From: Eublepharis macularius | Taxonomy: Eukaryota; Chordata; Lepidosauria; Squamata; Eublepharidae | Reading direction: 5' to 3' | Length of the DNA: 64,000 nt | Assembly: GCF_028583425.1 (NCBI RefSeq) | Contig: NC_072790.1 | Location: 14,676,552 to 14,740,551, forward strand | Shown here: one piece after another, positions 8,805 through 62,762 of the stretch | Layout of the letters: each line of letters starts with the position of its first letter | Position numbering within the stretch: position 1 is the stretch's first letter | Program-made: the position numbers and the translations under genes | Notes under the pieces: model-generated | What the model was told of the DNA's origin: nothing | What the model saw: only the letters and a program-made list of their open reading frames with translations | Databases searched by the model: none

Positions 8805-9713
8805 ATGAAGTCAGAATGCCAGCAGGGGGTTGGGGGCTTTCCAGTGTATTGCACTGAGTGTCACATGTATGACTATCTGCCTTCTGGTCAGAAGTCCTGG
8901 ATGTGTGCTCGCTGCAAGGAGCTCCTGGTTCTCAGGGAACGAGTACGTACCCTTGAGGCCAAGGTGGCTGACCTGGAGAAGCGGAGACAGTTAGATAGGC
9001 ACGAGGACAAGATTCTCAGGGACAGGATAGATGTGTCCCACTCTAAAAATGGCAGCGTTCTTGTTGTCAAGGAGAATGAGGATCTTGTGGAATCAGGGCA
9101 CCGTACTGAGGATAAGGGGAGCATGCCCTCAGAAGGGACCTCTTCTTCAGTTGGTGAGCAGGTTTCCTTTCACATCAAGGAACCATCCCTGGGTGGGGCG
9201 GGAGGGAGGCTCTTGGTAGTTGGTGATTCGATCCTTAGACAAGTAGATAGCTGGGTGGCACAACCGCGTTCTGACCGTATGGTGACTTGCCTGCCTGGTG
9301 CGAAGGTAGCGGACATTACGCGTGTTATAGATAGGCTGGTAGATAGTGCTGGGGAGGAGTCAGCGGTCGTGGTCCATGTTGGAACCAACGATGTTGGGAA
9401 ATGCAGTCGTGAGGTCTTGGAACAAAAATTTAGGCTGTTAGGCAGGAGACTCAAGGCCAGGACCTCCAAGGTAGCCTTCTCAGAAGTGCTACCTGTTCCA
9501 CGCGCAGGGCCAGAGAGACAAACGCAGATCAGGAGTCTCAATGCGTGGATGAGACGATGGTGTAGGGAGGAAGGGTTCAAGTTTGTTAGGCACTGGGATT
9601 CCTTTTGGGACAAGCGGGAGCTGTACAAGAGAGACGGTCTCCACTTGTCCCGAGAAGGAACCCGGCTGCTGGCACTTAAAATCAAAAAGGTGGCAGAGCA
9701 GTTTTTAAACTAA
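8805..9713 (+). CDS. CR1 ORF1: zinc-knuckle/coiled-coil and SGNH esterase protein
   Basis: The 302-aa frame is complete. Residues 16-37 hold C-x2-C...C-x2-C (C16, C19, C34, C37), a zinc-binding arrangement. A coiled-coil heptad stretch follows (LVLRERVRTLEAKVADLEKR, about 41-60). The C-terminal half is an SGNH-hydrolase fold: GDS at 140-142 with nucleophile S142, GTND at 193-196, and DGLH at 277-280 giving D277 and H280 of the triad. In CR1 elements ORF1 is thought to bind nucleic acid and lipid or ester substrates during retrotransposition; that role comes from the family, not from this copy. All catalytic residues are present. The ATG used is the first in frame, and the stop TAA is 29 bases before ORF2's first ATG. 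Confidence 0.9.
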   Translation: MKSECQQGVGGFPVYCTECHMYDYLPSGQKSWMCARCKELLVLRERVRTLEAKVADLEKRRQLDRHEDKILRDRIDVSHSKNGSVLVVKENEDLVESGHRTEDKGSMPSEGTSSSVGEQVSFHIKEPSLGGAGGRLLVVGDSILRQVDSWVAQPRSDRMVTCLPGAKVADITRVIDRLVDSAGEESAVVVHVGTNDVGKCSREVLEQKFRLLGRRLKARTSKVAFSEVLPVPRAGPERQTQIRSLNAWMRRWCREEGFKFVRHWDSFWDKRELYKRDGLHLSREGTRLLALKIKKVAEQFLN

Positions 9714-9742
9714 ATGCTAGGGGAAAGCCGACAAGAGATAAA

Positions 9743-12691
9743 GTGTCTCTGGTTCAGGATGGTTCATCTCAGAGAGATGAAGGGCTAGGTATAACACTTC
9801 TACAGGGAGATAGATTAGAGTTGTCAACTGAGATGGAGACAAACAGTGCAGATGACCTAACTACGTCTCGAGGCAAAGTGTGCCGGGGAAGTTACAGGTG
9901 TTTATATACAAATGCTAGAAGTGTCTGAGGTAAAATTGGGGAGCTGGAATGTTTAGTGTTGGGCGAATCCATAGACATTGTGGGCATATCAGAAACTTGG
10001 TGGGATGAGGAAAATCAGTGGGACACGGTGATTCCTGGATATAAATTATATCGGAAGGATAGGGAGGGAAGGGTTGGTGGTGGGGTGGCTCTATATGTCA
10101 GAGAAGGTATACATTCCAGTAAGATTGAGAAGGTAACTGAATTAGATTCGCTTCTGGAAATGCTATGGGTTGAAATTACGGGCCCAAATGGAAACTTAAC
10201 TGTGGGAGTTTGTTATCGCCCTCCAGATCAGAAAATAGAGGAGGATTATAAAATGATGACAGGATTAAAGATGGCTGCTAAACAAAAAAACTGTGTTGTA
10301 ATGGGTGATTTTAACTACCCACACATTGACTGGGCCAATGGGTGTTCGAATCGGGGGAGAGAAAGTGAGTTTCTAGACTGTCTCAATGACTGTGCTATGG
10401 AACAGATGGTTACAGAACCTACTAGGGGAGATGTGATCCTGGATTTGGTCCTCAGTAATGCTGAAGACCTGGTGAGAGATGTAAATGTGATTGCACCACT
10501 TGGGAACAGTGATCATAATGTTATTGAGTACAACATATGTATAAATAGGAAATTGCCAAATAAGACCAACACAGCCATGTTTAACTTCAAAAGGGGTAAC
10601 TTTTCTGAGATGAGGGGGTACGTGAAGAAGAAACTGAAAGGGAAAGTAAAAAAGGTCAAAACACTTGGGGAATCTTGGAGACTATTTAAAACTACAATCC
10701 TGGAAGCTCAAATTAAATATATACCGCTGGTTAGGAAAGGCACAAATAGGTTTAGGAAAAGGCCAGCATGGTTAACAAGCAATGTAATAGAAGCTGTAAA
10801 AGGTAAAAAGGATTCTTTTAGGCAGTGGAAAACTAGTCGGAGTGAGGTTGATAAAAAGGAGCATAAGCTGTGGCAAAAAAAGTGCAAGTCTGTGATCAGA
10901 CAGGCAAAAAGGGAATATGAGGAGCATATTGCAAAGAACATAAAGAAAAACAATAAACAATTCTTTAAATATATTAGAAGTAGGAAACCAGCTAGGGAGG
11001 CAGTGGGGCCCTTGGATGACCAAGGCGTAAAAGGATTACTAAAGGGTGATAGGGAAATGGCCGAGAAGCTGAATGCGTTCTTTGCTTCTGTCTTCACTGT
11101 GGAAGATAAGAAGTGCATGCCCACTCTGGAAGCACTGACTTTGGGAGGGGTTTTGAAAGACCTGAGTCACATTGAGGTGACGAGAGAGGAGGTTATGCGA
11201 CTGCTAGATAATTTAAAAACTGATAAATCACTGGGCCCAGATGGCATACATCCAAGAGTTCTGAAAGAACTCAAGTGTGAACTTGTAGATCTCCTCACAA
11301 AAATATGTAATCTGTCATTAAACTCTGCATCTGTTCCTGAGGACTGGAAGGTAGCTAATGTTGTCCCCATCTTTAAAAAAGGTTCCAGGGGAGATCCGGG
11401 AAATTACAGGCCAGTCAGCCTGACGTCAATACCGGGTAAGTTGGTGGAAACTATTATCAAAAATAAAATTAGTGGGCACATTGATGACCAAAAGCTGATG
11501 AGGAAAACTCAGCATGGGTTCTGTAAGGGAAGATCTTGTCTCACCAATCTGTTAGAGTTCTTTGAGGGAGTGAACAAACAAGTGGACAAGGGAGACCCGA
11601 TAGATATTGTTTATCTTGACTTCCAGAAAGCTTTTGACAAAGTTCCTCATCAAAGGCTCCTAAGTAAGCTCAGTAGCTATGGGATAAAGGGCCAAGTCCT
11701 CTTGTGGATCGAAAACTGGCTAATTAATAGGAAACAGAGAGTGAGTATAAACGGGCACTTCTCACAGTGGAGGGTGGTGAGCAGTGGGGTGCCACAGGGG
11801 TCGGTATTGGGTCCAATGCTTTTTAACTTGTTTATTAATGATTTGGAATTGGGATTAAGCAGTGAAGTGGCTAAATTTGCAGATGACACGAAATTGTTCA
11901 GGGTGGTGAAAGCCAGAGAGGATTGTGAGGCACTCCAAAGGGATCTGTCGAGGCTAGAAGAGTGGGCATCCATGTGGCAAATGAGGTTCAATGTAGCCAA
12001 GTGCAAAGTAATGCACATTGGAACCAAAAATCCAAAATATAAATACAAGTTGATGGGGTCTGAACTGGCGGAGACTGACCAAGAGAGAGATCTTGGAGTC
12101 ATGATAGATAACTCACTAAAAACGTCAGCACAGTGTGCGACTGCCATAAAAAAAGCTAATGCTATGCTAGGGGTTATTAGGAAAGGGATTGAAAACAAAT
12201 CAGCCGGTATCATAATGCCTCTGTATAAATCGATGGTGAGGCCTCATTTGGAGTACTGTGTACAGTTCTGGTCGCCACACCTTAAAAAAGATATCATAGC
12301 ACTGGAAAAAGCACAGAGAAGGGCAACTAAAATGATTAAAGGGTTGGAACACTTTCCCTATGAGGAAAGATTGAGGCGCTTGGGGCTCTTTAGCCTGGAG
12401 AAAAGATGACTGAGGGGAGACATGATAGAGGTTTACAAGATAATGCACGGGTTAGAGAAGGTAGAGAAAGATGTGTTTTTCTCCCTTTCTCACAATACAA
12501 GAACTCGTGGGCACTCTATGAAATTATTGAGCAGTCGGGTTAGAACAGACAGAAGAAAATACTACTTTACACAAAGGGTGATAAACACATGGAATTCGTT
12601 GCCACAGGAGGTGGTGGCAGCTACAAGCATTGCCAGCTTCAAGAGGGGACTGGACAAATATATGGAGCAGAGGTCCATTAGTGGCTATTAG
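9743..12691 (+). pseudogene. CR1 ORF2: endonuclease-reverse transcriptase, interrupted by two TGA codons
   Basis: One continuous frame runs from 9743 to the stop at 12689-12691, apart from TGA codons at 9926-9928 and 12407-12409. The AP-type endonuclease shows ISETWW, VCYRPP, MGDFNYPHIDW and SDHNVIEY. The reverse transcriptase shows YRPVSLTSIPGKLVE, HGFCKGRSC, DFQKAFDKVPH, GVPQGSVLGP and catalytic FADDTKLF. The C-terminal part has LGVMIDNSL, YKSMVRPHLEYCVQFW and the last segment MIEVYKIMHGLEKV. Both TGA codons fall where related LINEs have arginine, which fits CGA-to-TGA decay at a methylated CpG (inference). The first lies near the endonuclease N-terminus and the second leaves the last about 95 residues untranslated, so this copy is unlikely to make full ORF2 protein. 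Confidence 0.9.
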
Positions 12692-14274: not shown

Positions 14275-14830
14275 AAGAGTCCAGTAGCACCTTTAAGACT
14301 AACCAACTTTATTGTAGCATAAGCTTTCGAGAATCACAGTTCTCTTCGTCAGATGCATGGAGGGCAAGAAGAAACTGGTCAGATATATAGGTGGAGAGGG
14401 GAGGGAGGAGTAGATGCAAACAGCTCCTTCTGATATGGAGATCAGTTTGCTTCTGTTAAGGAAGTCAGTTACTTCTGATAATGAGATAACCATTCATAGC
14501 CTCTATTCAATCCCAGCCTGGCTGAGTCAAATTTACATATGAATTCCAATTCAGCAGGTTCTCGTTGGATTTTGTTTTTGAAAGGTTTCTGTTGAACTAC
14601 AGTGACCTTTAAGTTTTTGATGGAATGTCCTGGTAGATTGAAGAGTTCTCCCACTGGTTTCTGGATGTTGCTATTTTTAATGTCAGATCTGTGTCCATTT
14701 CTTCTTTTGTGCAGAGGTTGGCTGGTTTGTCCAATGTACAGAGCAGATGGACATTGTTGGCACATGAGGGCATATATGTGCCAACAATGTGCCAACAATG
14801 CCTCCATGTGATAGAGGAGTAAGAGAATTA
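14275..14830 (-). mobile_element. Penelope-like element 3' part with GIY-YIG endonuclease, minus strand
   Basis: The minus frame 14469-14843 encodes ALYIGQTSQPLHKRRNGHRS, then KPVGELFNLPGHSIKNLKVTVV and a C-terminal CKFDSARLGLNRGYEW. This matches the GIY-YIG region and tail of Penelope-like retroelements. The 3' untranslated part at 14275-14360 contains AGTCCAGTAGCACCTTTAAG and TAAGCTTTCGAGAATCACAG, words widespread in reptile Penelope copies. It is 5'-truncated. Confidence 0.75.
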
Positions 14831-15380
14831 CGTGCACACACATCCATTTCTTTTCTCATTCACAAGCAAGCGAGATTAGAGGTGCCACAAACTTCAGGTG
14901 AACATGGTCAGCAGAGGAACAGACTGTTGTCAACAGCTGTGGTCACTCATGAACTAAACTGCCTCACCACCATCCAAGATGAACAAATTTTGAAGATTAA
15001 TATACAACTTAAACCAGAAGCTTTTTTATTGGAACTAATGGACAAACAGCTGGAAATCAATTCTGGCACCTTGTTTTTATATATGACTAGCTTGATGCCC
15101 GTGCTTCACTACGGCATGTAACTATTTTAAATCCAGTTATAATACTTATGGGTATGTAACATTTTTTGGTTTGTGGGGTTTTGCTTCATCCCCCTGCAAA
15201 ACTATTTTTGATAAAATAAGAAATTGCTAGATTCTCACAGTGTTGTAATAATCTATAGTCACACTCCACTAGTTCCCAGTTTTCATTTTCCTTTGCACAG
15301 TTGGAAATTGTCAGCTGCATAAAAAGTAAGCCTCTATCCCTTTTCATTGTGGTGTTAGAAAAGAAAAGATGTGGGCTGCA
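14831..15380. other. No gene seen; repeat-end signature near 15.09 kb
   Basis: No coding segment is recognised. ACTAGCTTGATGCCCGTGCTTC near 15087-15108 looks like the terminus of a dispersed reptile repeat whose family I cannot name. Confidence 0.4.
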
Positions 15381-28684: not shown

Positions 28685-28687
28685 ATG
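28685..28687 (+). CDS. PPP3R1: PPP3R1 coding exon 1 (Met1 only), calcineurin subunit B type 1
   Basis: The start codon sits in a strong Kozak context (CCGCCACCATGG) and is followed at once by a splice donor, GTGAGG at 28688. The exon therefore contributes only ATG and ends in phase 0. The next conserved exon begins with GGA (Gly2), as in the vertebrate gene. PPP3R1 encodes the Ca2+-binding regulatory subunit of the phosphatase calcineurin (PP2B), which acts in Ca2+ signalling to NFAT and other substrates. The 5' untranslated part extends an unknown distance upstream in the CpG island. Confidence 0.85.
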
Positions 28688-31515: not shown

Positions 31516-33039
31516 GTAGACATTCTTGCCATATGATAGCTATTTGAGAAATGTAAGTGCTGAGTGCCACGGACTGTAGTTTGTTCTTGAATAATGACAG
31601 TCAAGGGGACTACAGCAATATCCAGCACTTGTAAGGGAATAGAAGCTTAGCAACTTACTTACAAAGTGTTCTATAGCTACCTATCTTTAAGCAACTGCTA
31701 CACTTAATACAAAAAGTATATATTGTTTTGTAGGTGTGAGATGGGGATGGCTTCCACATGGGTGATCCGCCCTGAGTTCACTGCTTTTGAGAAGCGGGGC
31801 TTTTTCCTGTTTCCCTATAGTATTGTAGTGCATTCATGCACCTCCAGATGTTTACCTAGCTTTTCTCCAGACTTTCTGAAAACTGTTTTTCTTCTAAATT
31901 TGAGGAAAGATTTCAGTAAAGCCTGGAGTGGGAAAATTTGGATTTTCTGGGCCATATCACAGCCATTTTCCCTAGCCGTGTCCCTATAAACAGCCATTTC
32001 CTACCCCCGCTACCTGGGAAGGGGGGCTTTTTATTTTTTTAAAAAATGGCACTAGAATATATCTACCCTGCTGTAACAATAGGTGTAGTGAGTTCTCTGA
32101 ATTTTTCATTTTAAAAGCAATTCTCTAACCCCTTCCATTGCAGGGATACAAATGAAGAGGCTAGAGACTTACTCTGGTTTTTAAAATGAAAGTTGGGGAT
32201 TCATAAAACCTGCTGCTCCCATAGTTACAACATTATATCAGTATAACAGTATTCTAGCGCCAATTAAAAAAATAGCAAAAGCCCTCATGGCCCAGTTGGG
32301 GGCGGGTAGCATCCACTTCTGGGAATTGGAACAGGGAAACTGCAGGGAACCTTCCCTGTGGAAGCTGTGTTGCTGCTGCACTTTATCTGCAGCCACATCA
32401 GGAACAAGGAAGCTACAAAATCCCATCCCTGTGTGGAAGACACTGTTCCCACCCCCCCTTGTACTTGGTCATGTAGGGCTTTTCTTCACAACCCACGGTG
32501 TTTTGTGCTGAGAGGAGCATTTATTGTGCAGTTTTCTCTTAGGGCCATGTTTCTGTTGCCAGGGTACCACATTCTTTCATCACCCAGACTGCAGTATTTT
32601 GCATGTGAGCAAACATTTCTCTCCTGGGCAGTGTGCTCAAAGCTGTTATCATTTACCTTAATGCCACTCATTGGCTGTGATCTGGATGACCAACTCCCCT
32701 TCATTGTCCATCTTTGAGACAGCACATCTAGGTATCCTTAAGGGAGGGGGGAGAGCATGAGAATAACAGACCCCCCCCTTTTGAAATATTTCTGGCAAAT
32801 GGAAAATGGGAAATTTGACAATTATGAGGTTTTTCAAATTAAGGAATAATGCTGAAAAGCAGTGGGGGAACACATTGTCCGATGGTACAAAAACATCCAC
32901 TTATTTAAGTACGGTTTAAACAGTATTATAGTAATAGTTTATTTGTTAAAATTGAAAAAAAATTCACTTTCACTTAAATTTTAATTTAGCAATTTTTTTG
33001 GGAGGAGTGTGAAGTAATATATTCTTTATGTTTCTGCAG
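31516..33039. other. Intron sequence, nothing specific seen
   Basis: No exon recognised; the frames at 31723-31989 and 32287-32717 have no family features. Confidence 0.4.
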
Positions 33040-33075
33040 GACCGAAGCGCTGCCAGGCATAGTGAACGCTCTGAG
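33040..33075 (+). CDS. PPP3R1: Candidate cassette exon A of PPP3R1 (12 codons, phase 0)
   Basis: Seen: pyrimidine-rich TTCTTTATGTTTCTGCAG ends at 33039, then 36 nt encode DRSAARHSERSE, then donor GAG|GTGAAA at 33076. The segment is a multiple of three and GC-richer than the surrounding AT-rich intron. Read in phase after the ATG exon, it is open. Inference: a cassette exon that adds 12 residues between Met1 and Gly2. Both intron phases fit PPP3R1, but I know of no described isoform with this sequence. It could instead be an exon of another transcript, or a chance AG...GT pair. Confidence 0.45.
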
Positions 33076-33655
33076 GTGAAAGTATTGTAGTATCAGTGAT
33101 AGGTAGCTTGTTTATAAGATGTAAGATGTAATCTGAGTAAAGCAAGTAATAAAAAAGCTAAATTGAATTGGATAATGTAATAATATTAAATATAGTTGGC
33201 AGCTGTGAGTACATTAAAATCTTTAATGCAAAACATTTTTTAAAGTGTACATTGAGAAATATTTGTAATTGGGTATTAAGTTTATTTGATTTCATAAAAC
33301 ACTATAAATACTTCCATGTCAAAATAATACATAGATTAAAGACTGTCATCAGGTTTATCCCCCCCCTCCCCCCAGCTCCAAGTCCATACCAGTTGCTTGT
33401 GTATCTAGAGAATACTCAGTTGTGGCAATTGTTGAAACAGTAGTGATATCCTTCCACTGGAGCTGAGTACATGGCATGTGTGAATGTTTGTAATTATTGC
33501 ATCTTTAAATATGTTTGATAAAAACACATTTTAGAAGCACATTAGCAATGCCACTGTAGTTTCAACTCCATTGTAATCTATTTATAGTGATGTACCGTTT
33601 ACATATGCAATGTTGTATCTAAAGTATTATTCACCTGAAAGTTTTTGCTTATTCT
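33076..33655. other. Intron sequence, nothing specific seen
   Basis: AT-rich; nothing recognised. Confidence 0.4.
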
Positions 33656-33835
33656 TATTTATTTACTTTGATACCTTACTTTTTTCTTCAGAGGGGACCT
33701 GAAGTGGTTTACTTTGTTTGCCTCTCCTTTCTTACTTGCAAGGCAGATTAGGCTGAATGTGGCAAGCTTCCACGTTAGAGCAGGGATTCGAACCTGGGTC
33801 TCCCAGGTCCTAATCTGATAATGTAACCACAAAGT
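33656..33835 (-). mobile_element. tRNA-derived SINE, minus strand
   Basis: On the minus strand the B-box region reads GGGAGACCCAGGTTCGAATC and the body contains GTGGAAGCTTGCCACATTCAGCC. It starts from an (A/T)-rich tail at 33656. It has the same general plan as the SINE at 39.41-39.65 kb. Confidence 0.75.
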
Positions 33836-34046
33836 CTTAGAAGTCAGGGAGTTTGTTCAGTCCCCTTGACCATCCTAGCTGAAGAACCTTTCAGTTGTCA
33901 TACTACTAAAGTATGAAGCTGGTTAAAAATGAGGGAAACTTCCTATGATTAATTCAGCTTGTAAACAATGTTTATCTACTTAGGACTGACGAAATAATAA
34001 GAACTTTATTGATAAGCTACCAGTGTCAGGATCCTACGCCATCCTT

Positions 34047-34515
34047 TTTTTTTTAAAAAAAATTAAAGGTTATCAAGCACATAGTCCAATTCAAGTCTTA
34101 CATTCACATAACAATAACTTATTTACAAGTTTACTGTTAACATTTAAAGTTTCTTTTTCTTTAAATGGTTTTTCCTCATATAGATCCATGAAAGTTGTGT
34201 TGTTCTTCAATTGCTTATATTTCTATTAATGACTGGTAGATTGTGTTCGTAGACTGTATATTGCTTGTTGTAATGTAGTCAAGAAATGGCTTCCACTTAC
34301 TGTAAAATTCTGTTGTCTTTTCTTTTTCTGAGGATTGTTGAATTCTTTCTGTAATTTTTTCCATAATCATTTGGTCCCACACCTTACTAAGCCATTGGTC
34401 TATATTTGGTGCTGCCTTAGCATTCCATTTTATTGTGATTATTGTTTTTGCTGCTACAAATAGACTAGTTATGAGTTCTTTTCTAGTTTGTGGAACTTTA
34501 TTGTCTTGCCATAAG
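34047..34515 (-). mobile_element. 5'-truncated L1 LINE, minus strand, with 15-bp target duplication
   Basis: A poly(T)/A-rich start at 34047 is the poly(A) tail of a minus-strand insertion. The reverse translation reads WLSKVWDQMIMEKITERI and FYSKWKPFLDYI, the C-terminal end of L1 ORF2. The exact direct repeat TCCTACGCCATCCTT flanks it at 34032-34046 and 34516-34530. The 15-bp duplication with a poly(A) tail is the hallmark of target-primed insertion. Confidence 0.92.
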
Positions 34516-34530
34516 TCCTACGCCATCCTT

Positions 34531-37320
34531 GACAGGAATGGCGATTCTCTACAAGCACAATGCACATGCACATCCTAAATCCCCGCCCCCTTGACTTAAC
34601 GGTTAGCTAAGTTTAAGCAAAAGCCTCCAGGCGGGAAAGAGCAGAGAGCAGAGCTGATGTAGAAAACGTCTCAGGGTAGTGAGTGTCAGTGCTAGCATCT
34701 CTTCCCAGGCTCAGGCAAGAGGAGTATAGGAGAACATACGGATAACAGTAGTAGTAGTATACTTCCACATCACAGTCACGAAATAGCTTCAGCCTTTAGT
34801 TAGACCCAAGGCATCAGAGCATAAACAAACATTACGCAGGGTCTTGTTGGGTTTGACAGGTGAACACCTAACAGTGGAAGGGGTCAGGGGCAGTGGTTTT
34901 ATACAAACACGCCTCACTCCATTTTCCACCTTGATTTCCCGTATCCCATTCTGTTTTGTTGCTGGGAGCCAGATATTTATTAGTCTTACATAAATCAAAA
35001 TTTGGAATACTTTAGTTTTCCCACGCTTGTTTATCTCTGAACTTTTCTTCTGAGAGCACAGTAGGTTGATACCTTGGGTAACCCACACATTGCGTTGGTG
35101 CAACAATCCAAAGTGTGTCCAGAACTCCCTAAATACTCTTCAGGGAACGGGCAAAATGATAGTGAAGCTATAGTCATTTAAAATTCTGTTCAACATTCTG
35201 GACTGCTTAAATTGACCGTAAATTGGTCAAGTGCATAAAACCATTAAGATTTTTTTTTCACGCAGAAGTTGTTCTAGTTACTATGTAAATAAGCTCATTA
35301 AGTACAGATTTGGATCCAGTGATCCTTCAGCAGAAGGTACCCATTCCTGTGCGAGTGCTGTGCTGGATCCATCTAGAGGTATAGATCGCCAGTGTAGGTA
35401 GCATGCAGGGTTTCTTAAAGTCCGATATTTTTGTATGGCAGCTTACAAAATACTCTCTAAACATTCTGCACTTGTATCTTTCAACTGGGCTGAATAAAAA
35501 CTAGGCATCTTTCCTCCATATTCATAGTTTCAACCATCATTAACTCGATGGTTCAGTGAGAGGAAGCACCCTGATTATTGGTGTCCTACTATTGAAAGTA
35601 GTTAATGTGGATTGTTGGATTGCTTACTGACAGTCTTGTTTATCATCTAAAGTCTGAATGCAAATAATTGACATTTGCTATATCTTGTTCTGATCTACAG
35701 AATATCCCGTTAACTGTTGCTTCTCGAAGGTTGTAACATAGTTGTAGGTAGCAGAAGAATGCAATGTTGGCCTTTTTATTTTTAAGAAATTACAAAAAAA
35801 GAAAACACAAAGCTGATCGTGCCAAATCTGGTGGTGGTTGATGTGTAAAAGTAAGACACTGGGACAAATTTGCTTTAATGAGAGTCCTTGTGAAGAGCGG
35901 GGGGGGGAATCAGAAATGACTTTGTGGAGGGCAGGGTGTTGTCTGTGTAGACCATGGGAATTTCTATTTGATAAGGATTTTTTGTTTCTTGCCTTGAATC
36001 TAGTAACGCATTCACTTGATAAAGACAGTGGTCTGTGCTTATACAGTTTTATGTCTGATTTAGTTGGTGTTATAAAGGGATTTCCCCCCTTTAAAATAGC
36101 TACAATTTAAGTTGAAGTTAAATTTAAGAACTTTAATCAATTTGACATTGGAATTAGCCAAGCTTCAGGACTTGTGGAATGCTGCTGCTAGAGTAGTACT
36201 TGCAAAGAAACAAGTTCCCCTGTTCCAGGCTTATTTCTGAGTTGGATCTGGCTCTTAGACTGCTGCGTCTTTTAATACACAGTGGCTATTAGTTGAAGTA
36301 ATAACTGGTGTGTCTTCAGGGAAGACTGTTCCATGAACAGCTAATAGCCAGTTGCCACAAGCGTTAAAGACACATTTGAATCCCTGCTATATTTTTAAAA
36401 TTTAGCTGGTTTCATTTGTGCAGTAAAATTTCTATATAGGCATACAATTCTGTGTCTTCTGTTGTGTGACGAATTCTTTGGCCCGTGTACTTGGATTGGG
36501 GTTTTTGTTTGTTTGTTTTGGTGTAATTTTTTTGCCTGATGAATTGAGAGTACATGATCTTCGGCCCATTCTAATCCATATGGAGGTGTATTTATGGACA
36601 TTTTTAGGGGGTGCAGACTCCTTGGAAGAGTTGTTGATTCCCTTATTGACAACTGTGTATGTGGAATTGCATTTTCCCCCCGACAGTTTGTAACCAAAGC
36701 TGCTGTACTTAATGTAAATATATGAAAAAAAAATCCCTCTGTGCTTCTTTTAATATTTGTCTATGGAAATGCTGTTGCCATATATAGAAATTTTTCATTG
36801 CTGCCTGTAACTGGATGAAGAAAGGCTGCTTTTGACACTATTGTCCACACATGTTTTTATATTTGGTGTTGTGCAGGACACACAACATTGTGCATTGGTT
36901 AATGAAGCCTTTGCCTTGGTTATGGCACTTAGCGTTTGTCTGGGATGCCACTTTCCTGTCACCCCCTATAAACCTGCGTGCATTATGATGTGGTATTGTT
37001 TTATGAAAAGAACAAAAGTCGCCTTGAGACTTCGGAGGAATGTCATTGTCACTCAGTACTTGATTGTCAAGGCCTGTTCTTACAGAGGCAGTGGTTCTGT
37101 CATCTAATCTCCATGCTAAGATGATGCTGGGATTTGTTTAGAAGTTAAATGAAACGTGGTGATAACTCTCCAAGCTAGTATTTTGTTAGTGGTGTTATCG
37201 AGCATTCTGTGAGGAGGTATCTTAGTGATGAAGTGATGCATACATTTGTTGAAGAGACTTACAAATTTTGAATGAATTTGGTGCAGCAGAGAAATAAGAT
37301 ATTAGCCTGGACCCTAGCTG
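34531..37320. other. Intron sequence, nothing specific seen
   Basis: About 2.8 kb without recognised exon or named repeat. Scattered open frames are short and have no domain features. Confidence 0.4.
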
Positions 37321-37800
37321 CTGGGCAGTCATCCCTCATATCGTATTACATAAAAGGCAAGCCGTATTCTTGACAACTCATATCTTATCCTGGTGTGCCT
37401 CCAGAGGGCGCCGCTGCGGTGGAAAACCCAGGCGAGGAAGCCTGGGTCTCCAGAGAGCGCGCCATGGTGGGCAGTGCAGGCAAGGTGGCCCATCCCTCCC
37501 TCCCCCACGACCGTTGCATGGCAGTGATCAGGGCAAGGAGGAGGTGGCAGTGCCCCACCTTCACCCAGCAATGACTGGGGCCTAGAGCAGGTGGCAATAC
37601 CCGCCCCCTGCTTCACCCGGCCAGGATCAGGCACAGAGCAGGTGGCAATGCCTGCCCCCCCTTAACCGTCCAGGATCAGGCATGGAGCAGGCTGCCTGCC
37701 CCCCGTTAACCGGCTGGGATCAGGCGCGGACCAGGTAGCAATGCCTGCCCGCCCACCCTCCCCTTTCTAGAGCTCATTATATTTTTTCCCACAACAGACG
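37321..37800. repeat. GC-rich dispersed element with internal minisatellite
   Basis: Imperfect tandem units of about 50 bases (CCGGCCAGGATCAGGCACAG, AGCAGGTGGCAATGCCTGCC) repeat about four times over 37.55-37.76 kb. The island is much more GC-rich than the intron around it and ends in TCTAGAGCTCATTATATTTT. The family is not identified. Confidence 0.6.
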
Positions 37801-37857
37801 GTGTTGCTAGTTTAATATATTTAATCCTGCTGTAATGAACACAACATACTGATAGGG

Positions 37858-37965
37858 TAGGCTGAGAAAAAAATAGCCAGTTTATTTCATGATCAAGATG
37901 AGATTTAAACCTTGGTCTCACCGATCCCACATTTATCTGTTACACTACAATGGCTTTGCAGTAAA
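37858..37965 (-). mobile_element. SINE fragment, minus strand
   Basis: GAGATTTAAACCTTGGTCTC is a decayed B-box region and TTACACTACAATGGC is the 5' end in reverse. Same general family as at 39.41 kb. Confidence 0.5.
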
Positions 37966-38349
37966 GCCCCTTTGTTCCTGATTCTTGAGGGTGAGGAATT
38001 GATTTCCTTCCTGTACCTGGTTAAGTGCAGTCATATGCTTAGGTAATGGCTCCCTTGTGATACCGTAAACTCCACAGATAGCTGTGACACAAAGCCAATA
38101 TGGACTTGGGCACTGTAATATATAGAGAGGAAAGCATTAATTATTGGGCAGGCAGGGCTGCACTAAGTCCATTTATGCTTCTGCTTGTGCTTCTCTGCAT
38201 CCAAGCCACTGTATGTTTTTCAGAGACCCATATTAACACTCAATCTTTCCACCTGTTCTGACAGTGAAAACCTTGCGTTTTCCCAGTATGTACTGATGTG
38301 GCCAAATTACAGATAATAGCCATAAGGGGTGAGTGAAAAATTACTATAC

Positions 38350-39310
38350 TTGAGAAGGTCCAGAACGGAATATTCTCTAAATTATCGAACTGCCTTAAGA
38401 CTCAGTGGCTCTGCTTCACCAAGCAAGGCTCTCCTAGCTAAACCTTTCCCCCTACTGTTTGTGCTCTAGTGGTATAGGTGATCTGCTTCATCTTCTAGAA
38501 GGTAGGTCCCTTTTTGGAAGAAGATGGCATTGGTTGGGACTTGGCAGCTAGATAGTATTTAGTGCTTTCTACTCTTGTAGCACGATGTATCGCACTTTCT
38601 GAAAAGGAGATCTTCAAGCAAGTGCGCCCTTTTTTCTTTCAGAAGGACCAGGGCTGTCTAGTGGGTTGCCTCTGCTTTGGCCTGGACTCCCTCCTCAGGC
38701 CGTGTGACCTACTGATGGGACTAACCTTTTCCTTGCTGGATAACTGATCAGGTTATAAAGTGTTCATTGCATCCTCATATTATGCATTTCTTCAGGGAGG
38801 CATCCTTTTTATTCCCCGCTGTAGTTCATAGATTTCCTACTTGACAGCTGAATCTGGTATTTCAAGCCCTCACTAGGGAATCTTTTAATGGACGTTGCCT
38901 TTCCTCGCTTGTCGATCAAGACAGCCTTCCTAGTGGCAGTTATGTCAACATGTTGCTTCTCCATACTGGTCACTCTCTGTGTGTGACCCGGCTTTCTAGC
39001 ACCGGACAGAACAGTAAGCAGTGCTGTGATGCAATCTCATTTATCCCCAAAGTCAGTACTATGTTCCACAGAAAACAAGAGCCAAGATCCTCTCATCTTC
39101 CTTCCCTTAGCCTAGGGACACGCGGTGGCGCTGTCTTGATGCCAGGAAGGCCTTTAGGATCTGCTTCAAAGGCCCAGAGCCTTCAAATGCTGTTCCTTCC
39201 TTTTTTGTCAACTACGTGGGAAGCAGCAACAAAAGCCCCTAAGACTTCTCTTGCCCGATTGCTGGTTCTTGAGCTCCTTTTCTGCATCATTTAGTTTCTA
39301 TAAATCAATG
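38350..39310 (+). mobile_element. DIRS-type retrotransposon relic (tyrosine recombinase region); fossil
   Basis: Short stretches on the + strand resemble the DIRS tyrosine recombinase, for example LNLVFQALTRESFNG near 38.84 kb, KTAFLVAV near 38.92 kb and FIPKVSTMFHRKQE near 39.04 kb. The copy is strongly decayed with many breaks and therefore old. Its ends are not identified. The open frame at 38950-39294 is not a host gene. Confidence 0.45.
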
Positions 39311-39404
39311 AAGAAATCAGGAGCCTTCCTTCTTCTCACCTTTTCCAGACAATGCCAGTAAGATGTTTTTGTATTGAACTTCTATGAAACATTTTGCTTA
39401 TTAT

Positions 39405-39650
39405 TGACTTCATTTATTGACTTCATCTATACCCTGCCTTTCTCCCCAAAGGGGACCCAAAATGGCTTACATCCTTCTTCTCTCATCCATTTCACCCTCA
39501 CAACAACCTTATGAGGTAGGTTAGGATGAGAGTGTGAGACTGACTCAAGGCCACCCGGCGAGCTTCTATGGCAGTGGGGAATCAAACTTGATTCTCCCTG
39601 ATCCTAGTCTGACAATCTGTCCACTACACCACACTGGCTCTCCATTTGCT
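39405..39650 (-). mobile_element. tRNA-derived SINE, minus strand, near full length
   Basis: In reverse it reads GAGAGCCAGTGTGGTGTAGTGG, a B-box region, the core GCCGGGTGGCCTTGAGTCAGT, then CTACCTCATAAGGTTGTTGTGAGGGTGAAATGG and a tail CAGGGTATAGATGAAGTC. This is the full plan of the MIR-like reptile SINE. Confidence 0.85.
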
Positions 39651-40855
39651 TCAGAACATATTAATAATTGAATGTTGATTTTAGGGTGGTCTTTTGATCT
39701 TGGTTGTAAGCAGCTTCTGTTGAGTATATTTTTGAGGAAACGCAATAGCTGCTTTTAGCATATTTGTGAGCCAATTTGAGCCTTTAGGAAAGGCATGGTA
39801 AAGTTGGCTTTCTTAATAAATACAGTTACAATTTAACCGTAGTATGTTCTTTCCACATTTTGTTTGCCATTTTGCATCCTTCTAAAGTTGTGCATTTCAA
39901 AGTGGAGACCATGCGGAACTGGGGAAGACTGTTGAGGTTTGGGCTAGATGTTTCCCTGCTTGCCTGACCTTAAACTTCAGTAGTCCTGTGCTGTAGTATA
40001 ATTCTTGCTGAGGCTTCAGGCTGGCTGAGCCAGGAGTGGTTTGGCTATTTCTAAACCTAAGCAGAACAATGCAGGCGTTTATCTTTTTGTTCCTGCGGTG
40101 TGTGCCTGAATGCTGTGTGGGAATGTGCACTACATGCGTGCCTAGGCTCTCGTATGACCCCCCCCCCCTGGTTAGAGGCGTTGGGAACTGTTGTCCCCGT
40201 CGCAACTTATGGTTTTTTGGTGATGGTGTAATACTGTGGCACAAACCCTCCGAGTCCCGTTTAAGACCTATCCACCCACCCCTTTCTGGTTCAAAATGAT
40301 CAGAGCCCTTAAATGCTTACAGCAGCATTGATTGGCGGGGGAAAGGAGGCATTCGGATTAGGATGCACCCCTTCAATGCATTCATCCTCCCCCAAAGCAG
40401 ATATCCTCCAGTTGTGCTCCTCCTGGGTGCATTGAAAATGCTTGCTTCTCACTGGGCTTAAAAAAAAAATCTTTAAAGTTACAAACTTAAGATTTTTCTG
40501 TCTTGGGAAATATCCTGAGTATGTAGAATCCCCTTCATGGTCTGCAGACATTTTCATTGCTCCAAGTATTGGACCATGAAGTTTGATATTGGAGAGAACA
40601 AGCTGGAAGTCCATGTGGCATGATTTGGGTCTTTTGGGAAAATGTATCTGTTTTTATCTCTGGGATCCTACAAGTTCTTGGGTGCCTTAGCAGTCTAACT
40701 CCCCCCCCCCCCCATTTGTTATTCCACCACCACCCTTTTAACTGATTCTCAACTGTCCCAAACAACCTCATTACTTCTAGATAATCACTCAGGGTGGGTG
40801 AGAAATTACGACTTTATGGTTTTATCCTCCCAGCCGTACAGCGTATTGGGCTCTT
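39651..40855. other. Intron sequence, nothing specific seen
   Basis: Contains homopolymer C runs near 40159-40168 and 40701-40714. No exon or named repeat recognised. Confidence 0.4.
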
Positions 40856-40859
40856 GGGA

Positions 40860-41260
40860 GCTAAAGGAATAATTAAACAACAATTACTGGGAAATTAATT
40901 TTTGCCAGGGATTGTGGCAAAAATTTTGGCCTGGCGTCTTTATGCATTAAAATCCCCTTCACCTTGGCCTGCTTTAACGCGTTACCATCAGTCTTGAAGG
41001 GGGATAGTCATGTACTCCATACTGCCAACGTATCCGCCCTTGTTGTTTGGGTCTGATTGAAACAGTCAAACATGTCCTTTTGAGTTGCTCATTTTTAAGG
41101 ACATTCAGAAAAATATATATTGCCCCAATCCTGTCCAAGTATCCAGGCAGATCTGGCTGATTTTATACTGCTCTCCTACTTATTGATTGTTTTGATGAAC
41201 TGTCCCTGAAGATGTCAGAATTTTGTGCCTTGGTCAGCTCAACAAGGCATGCTTAATCTT
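40860..41260 (+). mobile_element. LINE C-terminal (post-RT zinc region) relic
   Basis: The frame GLIETVKHVLLSCSFLRTFR, then YIAPILSKYPGRSG, one stop, then FYTALLLIDCF resembles the conserved C-terminal cysteine region of non-LTR ORF2 proteins (ETVEHVLLxC pattern). The clade is uncertain. Confidence 0.5.
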
Positions 41261-41705
41261 TATACCACTACTAACAGTGATATGATTCCCTTATAGTTTG
41301 TAGTATTTTATGTATTACCTAACTGTCCTGAACATTCCAAGTCTTGTAATCAAGCAGTGAACATGTTCATGCTTTGACCATTTGCTAAAAATATCACAAA
41401 ATGATTACTTTCCCCATAGCTGGGAGAGTTCTCAGAGCATGCAGAAGTCATTGTCTTGCATGTGGGTGGCCTTGCTTTACAGCTTCCATGATTCTTGTGG
41501 AACAGACACTTTACTGTTGGCTGTAGTGGTGGAGATTAATTTTAAAGGCTCAGCTGTAGTTGGACTGCCAAAGTAAATATCTTATAGCACAACTGTTTGG
41601 TGTCACCATTCCACTTAATATATATATTAAGGACTCAGAATAATTGGAGGTGCAGATTGTGGACTTCTCAACTAACTCAAAATATAATCATTGATTAGTT
41701 CTAAC

Positions 41706-42012
41706 TAGACATGGGCATGAACCAAAAAAACCCAAACCACGTGATTCGTGGTTCGTAGCATTCCACGGAACCTCGAACCATGAACATCCAACCTTTTCCT
41801 GGTTCGTGGCATTTCAGCCACCCTGCACCAGCCGCTGAAGCCAGTGTGGGACATTTGAAACAGACAGCCCCTTCTGCTGCCTGGGCAGCAGGAGAACTGG
41901 GCTGTCAGTTTCACAGATCCCGTGCCAGTTTCAGCCTATGGGCTGAACCCAGCACGGGGTCTGTAAAACTGATAGCCCGGGCAGCAGGAGAAAGGGGCTG
42001 TCAGTTTCATTA
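41706..42012. mobile_element. hAT MITE of the TAGACATGGGCA family, right end unclear
   Basis: It starts TAGACATGGGCATGAACC, as at 20236, with GTGGTTCGTGG/CCACGGAACC palindromic words. The interior contains inverted CAGCAGGAGAA-CTGGGCTGTCAG segments. No clear right terminus or target duplication is seen. Confidence 0.65.
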
Positions 42013-42097
42013 GGTGTCATATGCCTGTCTGCATATCTGCCATGAATGTATTGTGTTATGTACTGGTCCTCTCAGGGCATGAGAAGTTTCTTATTGA
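42013..42097. repeat. 85-bp dispersed repeat also at 47.31-47.40 kb
   Basis: TATGCCTGTCTGCATAT, GCCATGAATGTATT and GGCATGAGAAGTTTCTTATTGA occur in the same order at both places. The copies diverge by a handful of bases. Family not identified. Confidence 0.7.
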
Positions 42098-42215
42098 ACC
42101 TTGAGCCGGCTGTCTGAACCCGGCTTCCGCCAGGATCAAACTCAGGTCGTGAGCAGAGCTTGGGCTGCAGTACTGCCACTTACCACTCTGCGCCACGGGG
42201 CTCTTCAAGCATGAA
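42098..42215 (-). mobile_element. Sauria-type tRNA SINE, 5' part, minus strand
   Basis: In reverse it reads GAGCCCCGTGGCGCAGAGTG, then GCTCTGCTCACGACCTGAG and CCGGCTCAAGG, the tRNA-related head of the squamate Sauria SINE family. The 3' domain is absent. Confidence 0.75.
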
Positions 42216-42244
42216 TAATCTGGTAAAAAGAATGCCATGATGCT

Positions 42245-42360
42245 TCATCTCATGCACTTGCAGTGCTATCCTGTTCAGGTTTATTCCAGTCTAAGCCCAT
42301 TAAAACTAATGGGGCTAGATGGGAGTAACTCTGTTCAGGATTGCAGTGTTCTAGTGTGAG
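42245..42360. repeat. Palindromic dispersed repeat
   Basis: ATTCCAGTCTAAGCCCATTA and TAATGGGGCTAGATGGGAGT form an imperfect inverted repeat around AAAC. The sequence pattern is widespread in reptile genomes and is MITE-like. Confidence 0.5.
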
Positions 42361-43197
42361 AACTCTTTCCTGTAGTAGTAGTAATTATCATGCTCAGATG
42401 TTTGCAGGATGGTTGCTGTTTTGGAGGTAAAGAAAAGTCACTCTGGGGTTACAACTTTATAATCAGTTAACTTTGGGAGTAAACCTAGGTTTGGGAACAG
42501 AGCCTTGGGTCAGACTAAGTCCTGAACTTCCCAGCCATTTGAATAATTAAGATCCCTTTTGTAAGATCCCTTTCTTGGCTGCTTAAGTGAACAGATCCCT
42601 CTCTCTCTTTTTTAAGTATTCACACCCCTTCAGGATGAAATGATGCTTCAATCCAGTTTAAAGAGCTGTATGAAAGGGGCATAAGAATAATTAGAAATAA
42701 AGTATTGAGCTACCCAAGCAGTAGCTCTTTTCGTTTAAAAAAAAATGGCTTATGAATAGGTAGGGCAACACTTTTCAGAGAGAATTCCTGGAAATTATGG
42801 GCAAACAAGCTGCTATATAACTGTAAATACCACTGAAGAATGTCATGGAGTATTGTTTCTTAAGAAAGAACATACTACTGCTCACTGGCCCAGATGAAGC
42901 AGGGAGGGAGGGGGAAACTGGTATAAATTCGCAAAAGATGGGGGAAGAGACAGGGACTTGGATCCAACAGAGTATTTCTGTGGCCAGGATTTCTCTCCGA
43001 GTGACTTCTCCGGGGATATAATATGACCCCCAAGAATAGCATTTGGGAGGGCATTTTTGGGCTGTCCTAGGAGGGAAGAGGTGGGAAAGTTGCACTTCAC
43101 AGAGGAGCTGCTCTGTTGGGTCCAACCCATTTCTTGTATGAACAAGACACATGATTGCCTAAACAGAAATGTAAACTCTGTTGTGTTACACCTGCAG
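42361..43197. other. Intron sequence, nothing specific seen
   Basis: No recognised repeat. The pyrimidine-containing stretch CTCTGTTGTGTTACACCTGCAG at its end is the acceptor of candidate exon B. Confidence 0.4.
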
Positions 43198-43278
43198 CAG
43201 CAACGCCAGACAGGTCCACCTCCACCAGCAGCAGCGGCAGGCAGGTCCAGTGGCAGCAAGCAGCAACACTACGTTCCA
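43198..43278 (+). CDS. PPP3R1: Candidate cassette exon B of PPP3R1 (27 codons, phase 0)
   Basis: Seen: an acceptor ending CTGCAG at 43197, 81 nt open in phase 0, and a consensus donor CCA|GTGAGT at 43279. The encoded peptide starts QQRQTGPPPPAAAAG and ends KQQHYVP, so it is Pro/Ala/Gln-rich and probably disordered. The segment is a GC-rich island in an AT-rich intron. Its length, its phase and its position between the Met1 and Gly2 exons all fit a PPP3R1 cassette exon. An acceptor three bases further on (CAGCAG) would drop one Gln. Inference: an extended N-terminus without Gly2 at the start. It could be an exon of another + strand transcript. Confidence 0.5.
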
Positions 43279-43800
43279 GTGAGTTTATTAAAGTTAGAAG
43301 TAGAGTACTCTTATTTTACTACAGATGTTGTATTGCATTTGGCCTCCCATCATCCTTGCGAAGTGATAGATTACTGTTGTTCCCATTTTACAGATGGGTT
43401 ATTCGAGATGAGGGTGACTTAATTCTGTGAGGTGAGTCTGCAGCATAGGTGAGCCGTGAGCTTAGGCCCTTTACGTTAAAGTCCAAGCTCACGCTGCCTC
43501 TTGAATCCCAGCAGCTGGAATCAAATGGGAATTGGTAGTAAACCAGATTTTGAACCTGGATTGTGGCAATTCCATTGCAGAGTAAAACAAAACATTGTGA
43601 ATTAAGGCAAAAAAGTGAATATTTCTTGCCTAGAGCAGTGCATTTGAAAAGGTGACCTGGTTCCAAGCAACTACATCAATCAGTGCAAAGAAGGTAATCT
43701 CTCGCATGACATTTTATTGGGTTGAATCTTGTGGCTTTTCCTCTAGGTGTTACAGTGAAATATTGTTCCACAAGTGTTAGGAGCTTTTCTCCATCACTGG
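43279..43800. other. Intron sequence, nothing specific seen
   Basis: No recognised repeat or exon. Confidence 0.4.
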
Positions 43801-49042: not shown

Positions 49043-50294
49043 GATGGTTGTTGTAGGTTTTCTGGGCTGTATTGCCGTGGTCTTGGCATTGTAGTTCCTG
49101 ACGTTTCGCCAGCAGCTGTGGCATCTTCAGAGGTGTAGCACCAAAAGACAGAGATCTCTCAGTGTCACAGTGTGGAAAAGCAAACTTTCAGTTAGGTCAC
49201 AAGGTCTACAGGAAACCAACTCACACTGATCGGTACTTACACAAAAACTCCAATCACCACCCCCGACAGAAAAGAGGCATAATGAAAACATTAGTGGATC
49301 GCGCAAGATGGATATGTGAGCCGCACTTTCTCAATGAGGAAATTAATCATCTAAACCACGCACTTCAGGCAAATGGCTACTCCAGAAATGAAATCCAAAG
49401 AGCAATCAAACCCAGGATGAATCAAACAACCAAGGAAAAACAGTCTCCTACAGGAAAAGTGTTTTTGCCATATATCAAAGGAATTACTGATCAGATGGGA
49501 AAGCTTATGAAAAAGCATAACCTTCAAGCAGTATTCAGACCCACACGAAAAATACAACAGATGCTACGATCAGCAAAAGACAGTAGAGACCCCCTCACCT
49601 CTGCAGGAGTATACCGTATACCCTGCAGCTGTGGACAAGTGTACATCGGGACCACAAAGCGTAGCATCCAGACAAGAATAAAAGAACATGAAAGACACTG
49701 CAGACTTGGACAACCTGAAAAATCAGCAGTGGCTGAACATAGCCTAACTCAAACAGGGCACAGTATCTTATTCCAGGACACCAAAATACTGGACAACACT
49801 TCCAACTACTTTGTCAGACTGCACAGGGAAGCCATTGAAATTCACAAGCATAAGCAAAACTTCAACAGGAAAGAAGAAACCTTAAGAATGAACAGAGCAT
49901 GGTTTCCAGTTCTAAAAAACACCAGGCTAACAAAACACTCTATACTCAGCAATAGCCCTGCAGAGAAGATTAGCACATCAAGCCCCAATCCATATGCAAA
50001 AGAACCTCCTCAGGATACAGTGAAGCCTCCCGCCATTAGCATTCCACACCCTGGGAAACTCTTACAGGATGACTCAGCTTAACCCCACCCCTCCTGAGTA
50101 GATATAAATGACCTGCCACATCTTTTCCACACTGTGACACTGAGAGATCTCTGTCTTTTGGCGCTACACTTCTGAAGATGCCAGCCACAGCTGCTGGCGA
50201 AACGTCGGGAACTACAATGCCAAGACCACGGCAATACAGCCCGGAAAACCCACAACAACCATCGTTCTCCAGCTGTGAAAGCCTTCGACAATAC
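49043..50294 (+). mobile_element. Penelope-like element with inverted terminal repeats and 12-bp target duplication
   Basis: The direct repeat ATTGCTTGCATC flanks it at 49031-49042 and 50295-50306. The left part (49043 to about 49180) and the right part (about 50110-50290) are inverted copies of one terminal repeat (GATATCTC-type hairpin words, TTCGCCAGCAGCTGTGG and its complement). The C-terminal coding part lies between them. The copy is 5'-truncated, since the reverse transcriptase core is missing. The open coding frame and clean target duplication suggest a fairly recent insertion. Confidence 0.9.
49162..50082 (+). CDS. Penelope ORF, C-terminal part with GIY-YIG endonuclease
   Basis: The 306-codon open frame is the C-terminal third of a Penelope-like reverse transcriptase. 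The N-terminal part (RKPTHTDRYLHKNSNHHP, residues about 17-34) matches the post-palm/thumb region. A linker with FLPYIKGITDQMGKLMKKH follows. The GIY-YIG endonuclease then shows VYRIPCSCGQVYIGTTKRS (about 151-169), RIKEHERHC and AVAEHSLTQTGH. Residues around the catalytic Tyr-Ile-Gly, Arg and Glu positions are present. The reverse transcriptase palm is absent, so this copy is not autonomous. The first ATG falls in terminal-repeat sequence, so the listed start is only an open-frame start. Confidence 0.85.
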   Translation: MSQCGKANFQLGHKVYRKPTHTDRYLHKNSNHHPRQKRGIMKTLVDRARWICEPHFLNEEINHLNHALQANGYSRNEIQRAIKPRMNQTTKEKQSPTGKVFLPYIKGITDQMGKLMKKHNLQAVFRPTRKIQQMLRSAKDSRDPLTSAGVYRIPCSCGQVYIGTTKRSIQTRIKEHERHCRLGQPEKSAVAEHSLTQTGHSILFQDTKILDNTSNYFVRLHREAIEIHKHKQNFNRKEETLRMNRAWFPVLKNTRLTKHSILSNSPAEKISTSSPNPYAKEPPQDTVKPPAISIPHPGKLLQDDSA

Positions 50295-56529: not shown

Positions 56530-58210
56530 CTGCAGCCCTCAAGCTAGAAAAATCAGTTGAAAATCTAAGTAGTGCTGCATTAGTAGGGTTAGTATGGTTT
56601 TTGCTATTTCCTTGGCCATCCTATTACTGAATTGCAAAAAAACCCCATCGACAGATGTGGGTTTGACTTGAGGGAGAAATCCTTATCCTCAACAGAGCCC
56701 AGAATGTTTGGGTGGGTGGGACTGAGAATTCCAAACACGTTCTCTGTTGAGGCTGCGCTGGAAGCTTAGAACATGAAGCTCCTTGAAGCCATTGACAACA
56801 TTGTTCCTCATCTACCTTTCCCAGCCTTGGGGCAGAAGCCAGCCTTTTGGTTTACCACAGAGTTAGATGATCTAGAGAGGGCGGGTAGAAAGCTCGTGCC
56901 AAATCTGATAGGGATGCTGTTGGTGGCCAGCTATCTTCCGTGTGGAAATTACCTTGCAAGGTACTACAAGGTGCAATCCTCCATGTTATTCAACCCCTAT
57001 GTAAAGCCTTTACGAGGAATTATTTGTAGCTATAGAATTGGTTGTCATCAATATGCAGATGATACCCAGCTCAATATTTCATTATGCCAATCTTCCACCG
57101 CTGCTATAGAAGTCTTGAATCGCTGCCTGACTGCTGTAGCCATATGGCTAAAAGCAAACAAACTGAAACTTAAGCCAAACAAGATGGAGGTGATGCTCGT
57201 TGGGAAGGCAGAGATTTTGAAGGACATTGTGCTTCCCAATTGTGATGGGTTTCAGTTAACCCTTGCAGACTCGGTTAAAAGCCTCGGCATTATACTAGAT
57301 CCAGCATTACTGCTGGAGAAGCAAGTTAAAACAGCTGCAAAAAAGGCTTTTTTCCAACTCAGGCTAGCCTGGAAAATGGCCCCTACTTTGGTATGGCCAA
57401 TCTGGCCACCTGGATTCATCCAGACTAGACTACTGTAACACTCTACATAGGTCTCCCTTTGAAGTCAGTCTGGAGACTCCAGTTGGTACAGATTGCTGCA
57501 GCTTGACTATTATCAGGACCTAGGTGGATGGAGCACGTTACTCCCATTCTGCAGTCACTCCATTGGCTACCCATCAGTTACCGGGCTCAGTTCAAAGTTT
57601 TGATTATCCCATATAAAGCTCTTCATGGTCTTGGCACCTGATATCTACTGGACCACCTCTTCCACTTTGCTTCGCCCCTGCAGCGTCACTCATCTGAACA
57701 AGGGTTTCTGCCGGTGCCACCTTGCAAACAGGCAAAACCAACAGCTGCCCGCACACATGTTTTCTCTCTAGTGGCTTCTGCCTTGTGGAATGGCCTGCCT
57801 GAAGAAGTCGGGAAAGCTCCCGCTTTCTTGGCTTTCCGAAAACAGCAAAACTGAATTATTCAGGAAAGCTTTTTCATACAGGCAATAGTGCCGTGCCATA
57901 AGGAAATGGCTGAGAGAGATGCTTGTGATAAAGTGATTGTAGACTGTACTACACTGTCTGTTGATGTAAGTATGCTCCTCCTGGCTAGTTTGTGTCATTT
58001 AATGCATCGTGTCAAATGGCTTATGTTTTATTTCAGCATTGTTTTAACTGTGCATTTGGATTTATGGTTGTATTCGGATTTTTGCTATCCACACCCTATT
58101 GTATTGTTTATTGAGTGTCCCAGCTGTTGATCGTATTAATCCTACACTGTGTAATCTGCTTTAAGTCTCAGAAAGGTGGACTATAAATAACATAAATAAA
58201 ATAAATAAAT
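56530..58210 (+). mobile_element. L2-like LINE, + strand, internally deleted
   Basis: The frame 56773-57438 joins a linker region (IDNIVPHLPFPALGQKP) to IGCHQYADDTQLNISL (RT box with YADD), CLTAVAIWLKANKLKL, KPNKMEVMLVGKAEILKD and SLGIILDPALLLEKQV. The middle of the reverse transcriptase is deleted. It continues with LHWLPISYRAQFKV and WNGLPEEVGKAPAFLAFR and ends at GAAAGGTGGACTATAAATAAC with (AAATAAAT)n near 58195-58210. It is the same family as the minus-strand copy at 52.5-55.6 kb (shared KMEVMLVGKAEILK). Confidence 0.85.
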
Positions 58211-59172: not shown

Positions 59173-59212
59173 GGAAATGAAGCAAGCTACCCACTGGAAA
59201 TGTGCTCGCACT
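59173..59212 (+). CDS. PPP3R1: PPP3R1 coding exon 2 (Gly2-His14 plus first base of Phe15)
   Basis: The 40-nt exon lies between the acceptor TTTCAG and the donor GTAAGT at 59213. It encodes GNEASYPLEMCSH and the first base of Phe15, identical to vertebrate calcineurin B. Gly2 is the N-myristoylated residue in the mature protein, after removal of Met1. The exon starts in phase 0, so it reads directly from the ATG exon, and it ends in phase 1. Confidence 0.95.
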
Positions 59213-62585: not shown

Positions 62586-62762
62586 TTGATGCAGATGAGA
62601 TCAAACGATTGGGAAAGAGGTTTAAAAAGCTTGATTTAGATAATTCTGGTTCTCTGAGTGTGGAAGAATTCATGTCTTTGCCTGAACTTCAACAGAATCC
62701 ACTGGTGCAACGAGTAATAGATATATTTGATACAGATGGAAATGGAGAAGTGGACTTCAAAG
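62586..62762 (+). CDS. PPP3R1: PPP3R1 coding exon 3 (EF-hands 1 and 2)
   Basis: The 177-nt exon lies between AACAG (ends 62585) and donor GTAAGC at 62763. It completes Phe15, encodes Asp16-Lys73, and ends on the first base of codon 74. EF-hand 1 is [12 protein letters not shown] (ligands D31, D33, S35, S37, E42). EF-hand 2 starts at D63 ([11 protein letters not shown]), with its last ligand E74 split over the next junction. The sequence is colinear with and, as far as I recall, identical to mammalian calcineurin B in this part. EF-hand 1 is the lower-affinity regulatory site class and, with EF-hand 2, forms the N-lobe that wraps the calcineurin A helix. Exons for EF-hands 3 and 4 lie beyond 64,000. 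Confidence 0.97.

Follow-up and report, generated by a model that had tools for sequence, protein, structure and literature searches.

Two in-frame segments in intron 1 of PPP3R1 from Eublepharis macularius: candidate N-terminal exons of calcineurin B or, somewhat more probably, chance pseudo-exons

Can the gene encoding calcineurin B in the gecko Eublepharis macularius insert extra coding sequence between Met1 and Gly2, and so make a form of the protein without its N-terminal myristoyl group? The question is raised by a stretch of 64,000 nucleotides (contig NC_072790.1, positions 14,676,552 to 14,740,551 of the forward strand), referred to here as the window, which carries on its plus strand the first three exons of PPP3R1, the gene of calcineurin B type 1. 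The first of these contributes the ATG alone and the second begins with Gly2, and the intron of 30.5 kb between them (intron 1) contains two short open segments bordered by AG and GT, named here segment 1 and segment 2 (Table 1). The proposal that they are exons is left undecided by the present analysis, and it is somewhat likelier that both are chance pseudo-exons.

The description of the segments in an earlier note on this DNA, which had taken both for in-phase cassette exons, is accurate. Their coordinates, sequence, translation, lengths and AG/GT borders are exact, both are multiples of three with phase 0 at each end, and both are richer in guanine and cytosine (GC) than their 1-kb flanks (segment 1, 0.61 against 0.35; segment 2, 0.63 against 0.42). 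Moreover one or both of them fit between Met1 and Gly2, and the arithmetic of 12, 27 or 39 added residues is right. The openness of the segments means little at such lengths because segment 1 is stop-free in two of its three phases and segment 2 in all three.

The frequency of comparable segments was determined by counting stop-free segments of 27-300 nucleotides, divisible by three, with an acceptor score of at least 5.9 and a donor score of at least 6.0, these being the weaker values of the two segments. The splice scores were obtained with a home-made matrix built on approximate vertebrate frequencies, and MaxEntScan is not their source. As background we read both strands of 22 stretches of this genome, each 10 kb long (220 kb, or 440 single-strand kb), with 338 N treated as A. 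They were placed at round coordinates on four contigs, with two more following the window, a non-random choice in which two of the 22 stretches are PPP3R1's own downstream flank, one of them with its last coding exons. Eight segments qualified in intron 1 and four in its reverse complement, whereas the background contained 89 per 440 kb, which corresponds to 6.2 expected per 30.5 kb (Poisson probability of at least eight, 0.28). When intron 1 was shuffled 300 times in 1-kb blocks, keeping its local composition, the mean was 4.04 and eight were reached in 5.7% of the shuffles. Taken by themselves, frame and splice sites do not stand out from the background and are uninformative.

The explanation that we consider somewhat more probable is that both segments are chance pseudo-exons of a 30.5-kb intron, because comparable segments and first-exon-like frames occur at the background rate and because the acceptor of segment 2 is weak. 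It is also favoured by the absence of a Pfam match, by the ordinary length of the stop-free run that holds segment 2, by the strong conservation of the protein and by the description of mouse muscle cited below. Each segment would be a short stretch between an AG and a GT that is stop-free and a multiple of three by accident, and we infer that the splicing machinery would ignore both or use them only as rare noise. Exon 1 with its ATG would then join exon 2 with its Gly2 directly, giving the normal N-myristoylated calcineurin B of 170 residues.

Several observations weigh against this explanation. A GC content of at least 0.6 that also exceeds the flanks by at least 0.2 was found in two of the eight qualifying segments of intron 1, against 0.42 expected per intron (probability of at least two, 0.066). 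The background count behind this expectation is six per 440 kb in five distinct places, one having been counted with two acceptors, and the expectation becomes 0.35 per intron if overlaps are merged. Both segments combine this GC contrast with three CpGs, whereas contrast with three or more CpGs occurs at 0.14 per intron in the background, where both cases are one place. An acceptor of at least 13 together with GC contrast was met neither in the 440 kb of background nor in any of the 300 shuffles. In addition, an origin of the two segments from a dispersed repeat was rejected, as segment 1 with its flanks (32980-33120) and segment 2 with its flanks (43150-43320) each have a single match in the genome, which is their own place; this holds at the sensitivity of a search that skips very common words and that old repeat copies could escape. 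The GC contrast is a rarer property than a fitting frame with splice sites, and this evidence is at most suggestive because the GC and CpG criteria were set post hoc, after the segments had been seen. It rests mainly on segment 1, with its strong acceptor and its CpG density.

As for GC-contrast places elsewhere, there is one more in the rest of the window and none among the four qualifying segments in the reverse complement of intron 1, while the shuffles, in which the local GC structure is lost, gave one such segment in 2 of 300 and two in none. A third AG/GT pair with GC contrast lies in intron 1 at 37405-37466; it is 62 nucleotides long, is not divisible by three, and is near a tandem array with units of about 44-51 nucleotides at 37559-37754.

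Segment 1 is the likelier real exon of the two, and segment 2, if real, is perhaps a first exon. Genuine use of segment 1, by itself, as a small cassette exon is unlikely. The product would be M-DRSAARHSERSE-GNEASY..., a protein of 182 residues with no Gly at position 2 and no N-myristoylation, and its inclusion would probably be restricted to one tissue or stage. The acceptor scores 13.05 bits, and a score of at least 13.0 is reached by only 7 of the 2032 AGs of intron 1. The three CpGs in 36 nucleotides represent a density matched by 1.6% of the 36-nucleotide windows between 31.0 and 59.2 kb, and the GC contrast and the single genome match given above point in the same direction. Moreover the segment keeps a G after the ATG (GAC). 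On the other hand the donor is only average (6.04), and an open frame is to be expected at 36 nucleotides; a second phase is open too.

For segment 2 a cassette is not to be preferred to an alternative first exon, because its acceptor is weak (5.92, with a donor of 6.96) and its frame runs on upstream to an ATG at 43138. Next to the 10.2 of exon 2, such a weak acceptor is what would be expected if no acceptor existed there, though the real exon 3 scores only 6.2. The frame is stop-free upstream to 43027 and open from there through the donor, with this single in-frame ATG. Segment 2 could thus form the 3' end of an alternative first exon transcribed from a separate promoter within intron 1. The 47 residues of this exon, 20 of them (MNKTHDCLNRNVNSVVLHLQ) preceding the 27 of segment 2, would replace Met1; with the 169 remaining residues of calcineurin B a non-myristoylated protein of 216 residues would result, which may correspond to calcineurin B alpha 2 of the rat. 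We hold this to be less likely again than a cassette use of segment 1.

Frames from an ATG to a good phase-0 donor are at background in intron 1 (5 against 5.75 expected), and those of at least 47 codons number one against 2.1 expected. The long open frame was also rejected as coding evidence for segment 2, since runs as long as its own (at least 131 codons) number 8 against 9.7 expected per 28 kb on both strands. The context of the ATG (TTGTATGA) is weak, with T at position -3 and A at position +4, and there is no CpG island upstream of 43138, the observed/expected CpG ratio being at most 0.45 in the 200-nucleotide windows of 41.8-43.2 kb. Three CpGs in the 81 nucleotides of segment 2 are not unusual (10%). 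Furthermore, positions 43027-43098 within the upstream frame have one further match of 78% in the genome (contig C8, 79964285-79964355, minus strand).

This upstream part may be an old repeat. On the other side of segment 2, the sequence at 43360-43560 resembles a MIR-type short interspersed element in reverse orientation (TTCCCATTTTACAGATG...). The possibility that segment 2 belongs to a protein domain was rejected, the Pfam scan of its frame having given no match, and a comparison of the 84-amino-acid frame with bacterial and archaeal genome contigs, made only in case vertebrate DNA had strayed into them, found none.

Rat calcineurin B alpha 2 is said to be a testis-enriched form, from rat testis, of 216 residues with an altered N-terminus, a length noted before the ATG at 43138 was found. 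The agreement in length with the candidate would be exact and striking; a literature search for this length beside calcineurin B found no paper. Equality across such a low-complexity stretch would moreover be surprising. The existence in print of an alternatively spliced calcineurin B favours a first exon here: the title of Chang, Mukai, Kuno and Tanaka (1994, BBA 1217:174-180), as cited in PMC5409981, speaks of "an alternatively spliced isoform ... (calcineurin B alpha 2)". This title makes doubtful the statement of the earlier note that no such isoform has been described. If used, the gecko candidate would, like calcineurin B alpha 2, be an alternatively spliced form of calcineurin B; it is predicted from the genomic sequence.

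Other calcineurin subunits offer looser parallels. Two reviews (PMC7456046, PMC5002468), whose relevant passages contain no splice form, name calcineurin B type 2 (PPP3R2 or CnB2) together with CnB1. This protein is likewise a variant of the regulatory subunit, but it is encoded by a gene of its own and does not arise from PPP3R1 by splicing. Calcineurin A beta carries a Pro-rich N-terminal extension according to a passage of PMC7456046, and segment 2 reads PPPPAAAA; that extension, however, sits on the catalytic subunit, where it is a constant element of the isoform. A passage of PMC5577920 describes both calcineurin B genes as being without postnatal splicing transitions in mouse muscle, the data not being shown there. 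The discussion of extensions in the relevant part of PMC9608770 concerns other phosphatases, and "isoform" in that of PMC10636124 stands for gene. No description of a PPP3R1 cassette exon was met in the literature search, in which most of the papers listed were judged by their listing or a passage.

It is improbable that the two segments both serve as cassette exons, singly or in combination, with extensions of 12, 27 or 39 residues, for although both have phase 0 at each end and GC contrast, and a weak acceptor is not fatal when the real exon 3 scores 6.2, the acceptor of segment 2 is weak (5.9) and its frame is open upstream.

The gene itself is PPP3R1, the exons from Gly2 to the C-terminus having all been located. 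With a mammalian calcineurin B as the tblastn query, residues 2-14 were placed at 59173-59211 and residues 16-73 at 62588-62761, and the pieces for residues 74-170 were placed in the 10 kb after the window, where the remaining coding exons lie. Identity to this query was 100% in four pieces and 84.6% in the fifth, whose differences sit where the query overruns the exon edge. Calcineurin B is thus a strongly conserved protein, its coding exons matching the mammalian sequence. A search of the gecko genome with the protein gave 18 matches, of which the best two are the exons of PPP3R1 itself; the remaining 16 have 28-60% identity and are presumably other EF-hand genes. A spliced calcineurin B retrocopy, which might have served as a fossil complementary DNA, was not readable among these 18 protein matches.

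Table 1. Positions of the two segments, of the PPP3R1 exons and of further open frames in the window
Feature	Position	Strand	Description
Segment 1	33040-33075	+	36 nucleotides, 12 codons, DRSAARHSERSE; phase 0/0; splice acceptor TTTCTGCAG and donor GAG/GTGAAA; putative small cassette exon
Segment 2	43198-43278	+	81 nucleotides, 27 codons, QQRQTGPPPPAAAAGRSSGSKQQHYVP; phase 0/0; weak acceptor, donor CCA/GTGAGT
Open frame from ATG to phase-0 donor	43138-43278	+	47 codons including segment 2; putative alternative first coding exon, N-terminus MNKTHDCLNRNVNSVVLHLQQQRQ...
PPP3R1 exon 1, coding part	28685-28687	+	ATG alone in a CCACCATGG-like context, followed by donor GTGAGG (score 8.9)
PPP3R1 exon 2	59173-59212	+	From Gly2: GNEASYPLEMCSH and the first base of the next codon; acceptor 10.2, donor 6.7
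PPP3R1 exon 3	62586-62762	+	Rest of Phe15 to residue 73 and one base; acceptor 6.2, donor 11.2
Two open frames	8805-12409		302 and 817 amino acids

Elsewhere in the window, the two frames at 8805-12409 look like a CR1-type element without long terminal repeats (LTRs), with its first open reading frame (ORF1) and an endonuclease-reverse transcriptase. Open frames at the window edge (14-2417) resemble the polymerase and integrase regions of an LTR element of Ty3 type, and a frame of 124 amino acids at 14469-14843 on the minus strand has a GIY-YIG-like stretch such as occurs in Penelope-like elements. Within intron 1 (31.2-59.2 kb scanned) the longest stop-free run of the plus strand, at 49102-50079, has 326 codons and no Pfam match, and a run of 222 codons at 56770-57435 gave a marginal match to the reverse transcriptase family PF00078 (29.2 bits against a cut-off of 29.6). 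The Rfam scan of the window gave no match at the gathering score.

The consequences for the protein would be similar whichever segment were used. N-myristoyltransferase requires Gly2 to be the second residue, and moving it prevents N-terminal myristoylation. Every model of extension would therefore deprive calcineurin B of a Gly at position 2 and of its myristoyl group. An N-terminal extension need not break the fold, because structures 4il1_A and 7u0t_A carry other sequence ahead of calcineurin B (which starts at positions 159 and 76, respectively); these fusions suggest that extensions are tolerated and are silent on natural use. The myristoyl group of calcineurin B is established, and a passage of PMC8583826 calls its role in localization or substrate choice undetermined.

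If the segments are due to chance, they counsel caution, given that about six segments fitting in phase 0 are expected per 30-kb intron of this genome at the thresholds used. The contrary view, that PPP3R1 has here alternative N-termini (the 12-residue cassette and/or the 27-residue cassette or 47-residue first exon) which remove Gly2 and would release a fraction of the calcineurin from membranes in one tissue or another, is rather unlikely. Were it true, a more soluble pool of calcineurin would be the likely effect, and with the form containing segment 2 the little-studied isoform calcineurin B alpha 2 would no longer be confined to mammals. A natural splice form in which the myristoylated N-terminus is swapped would then provide a direct handle on the role of the myristoyl group.
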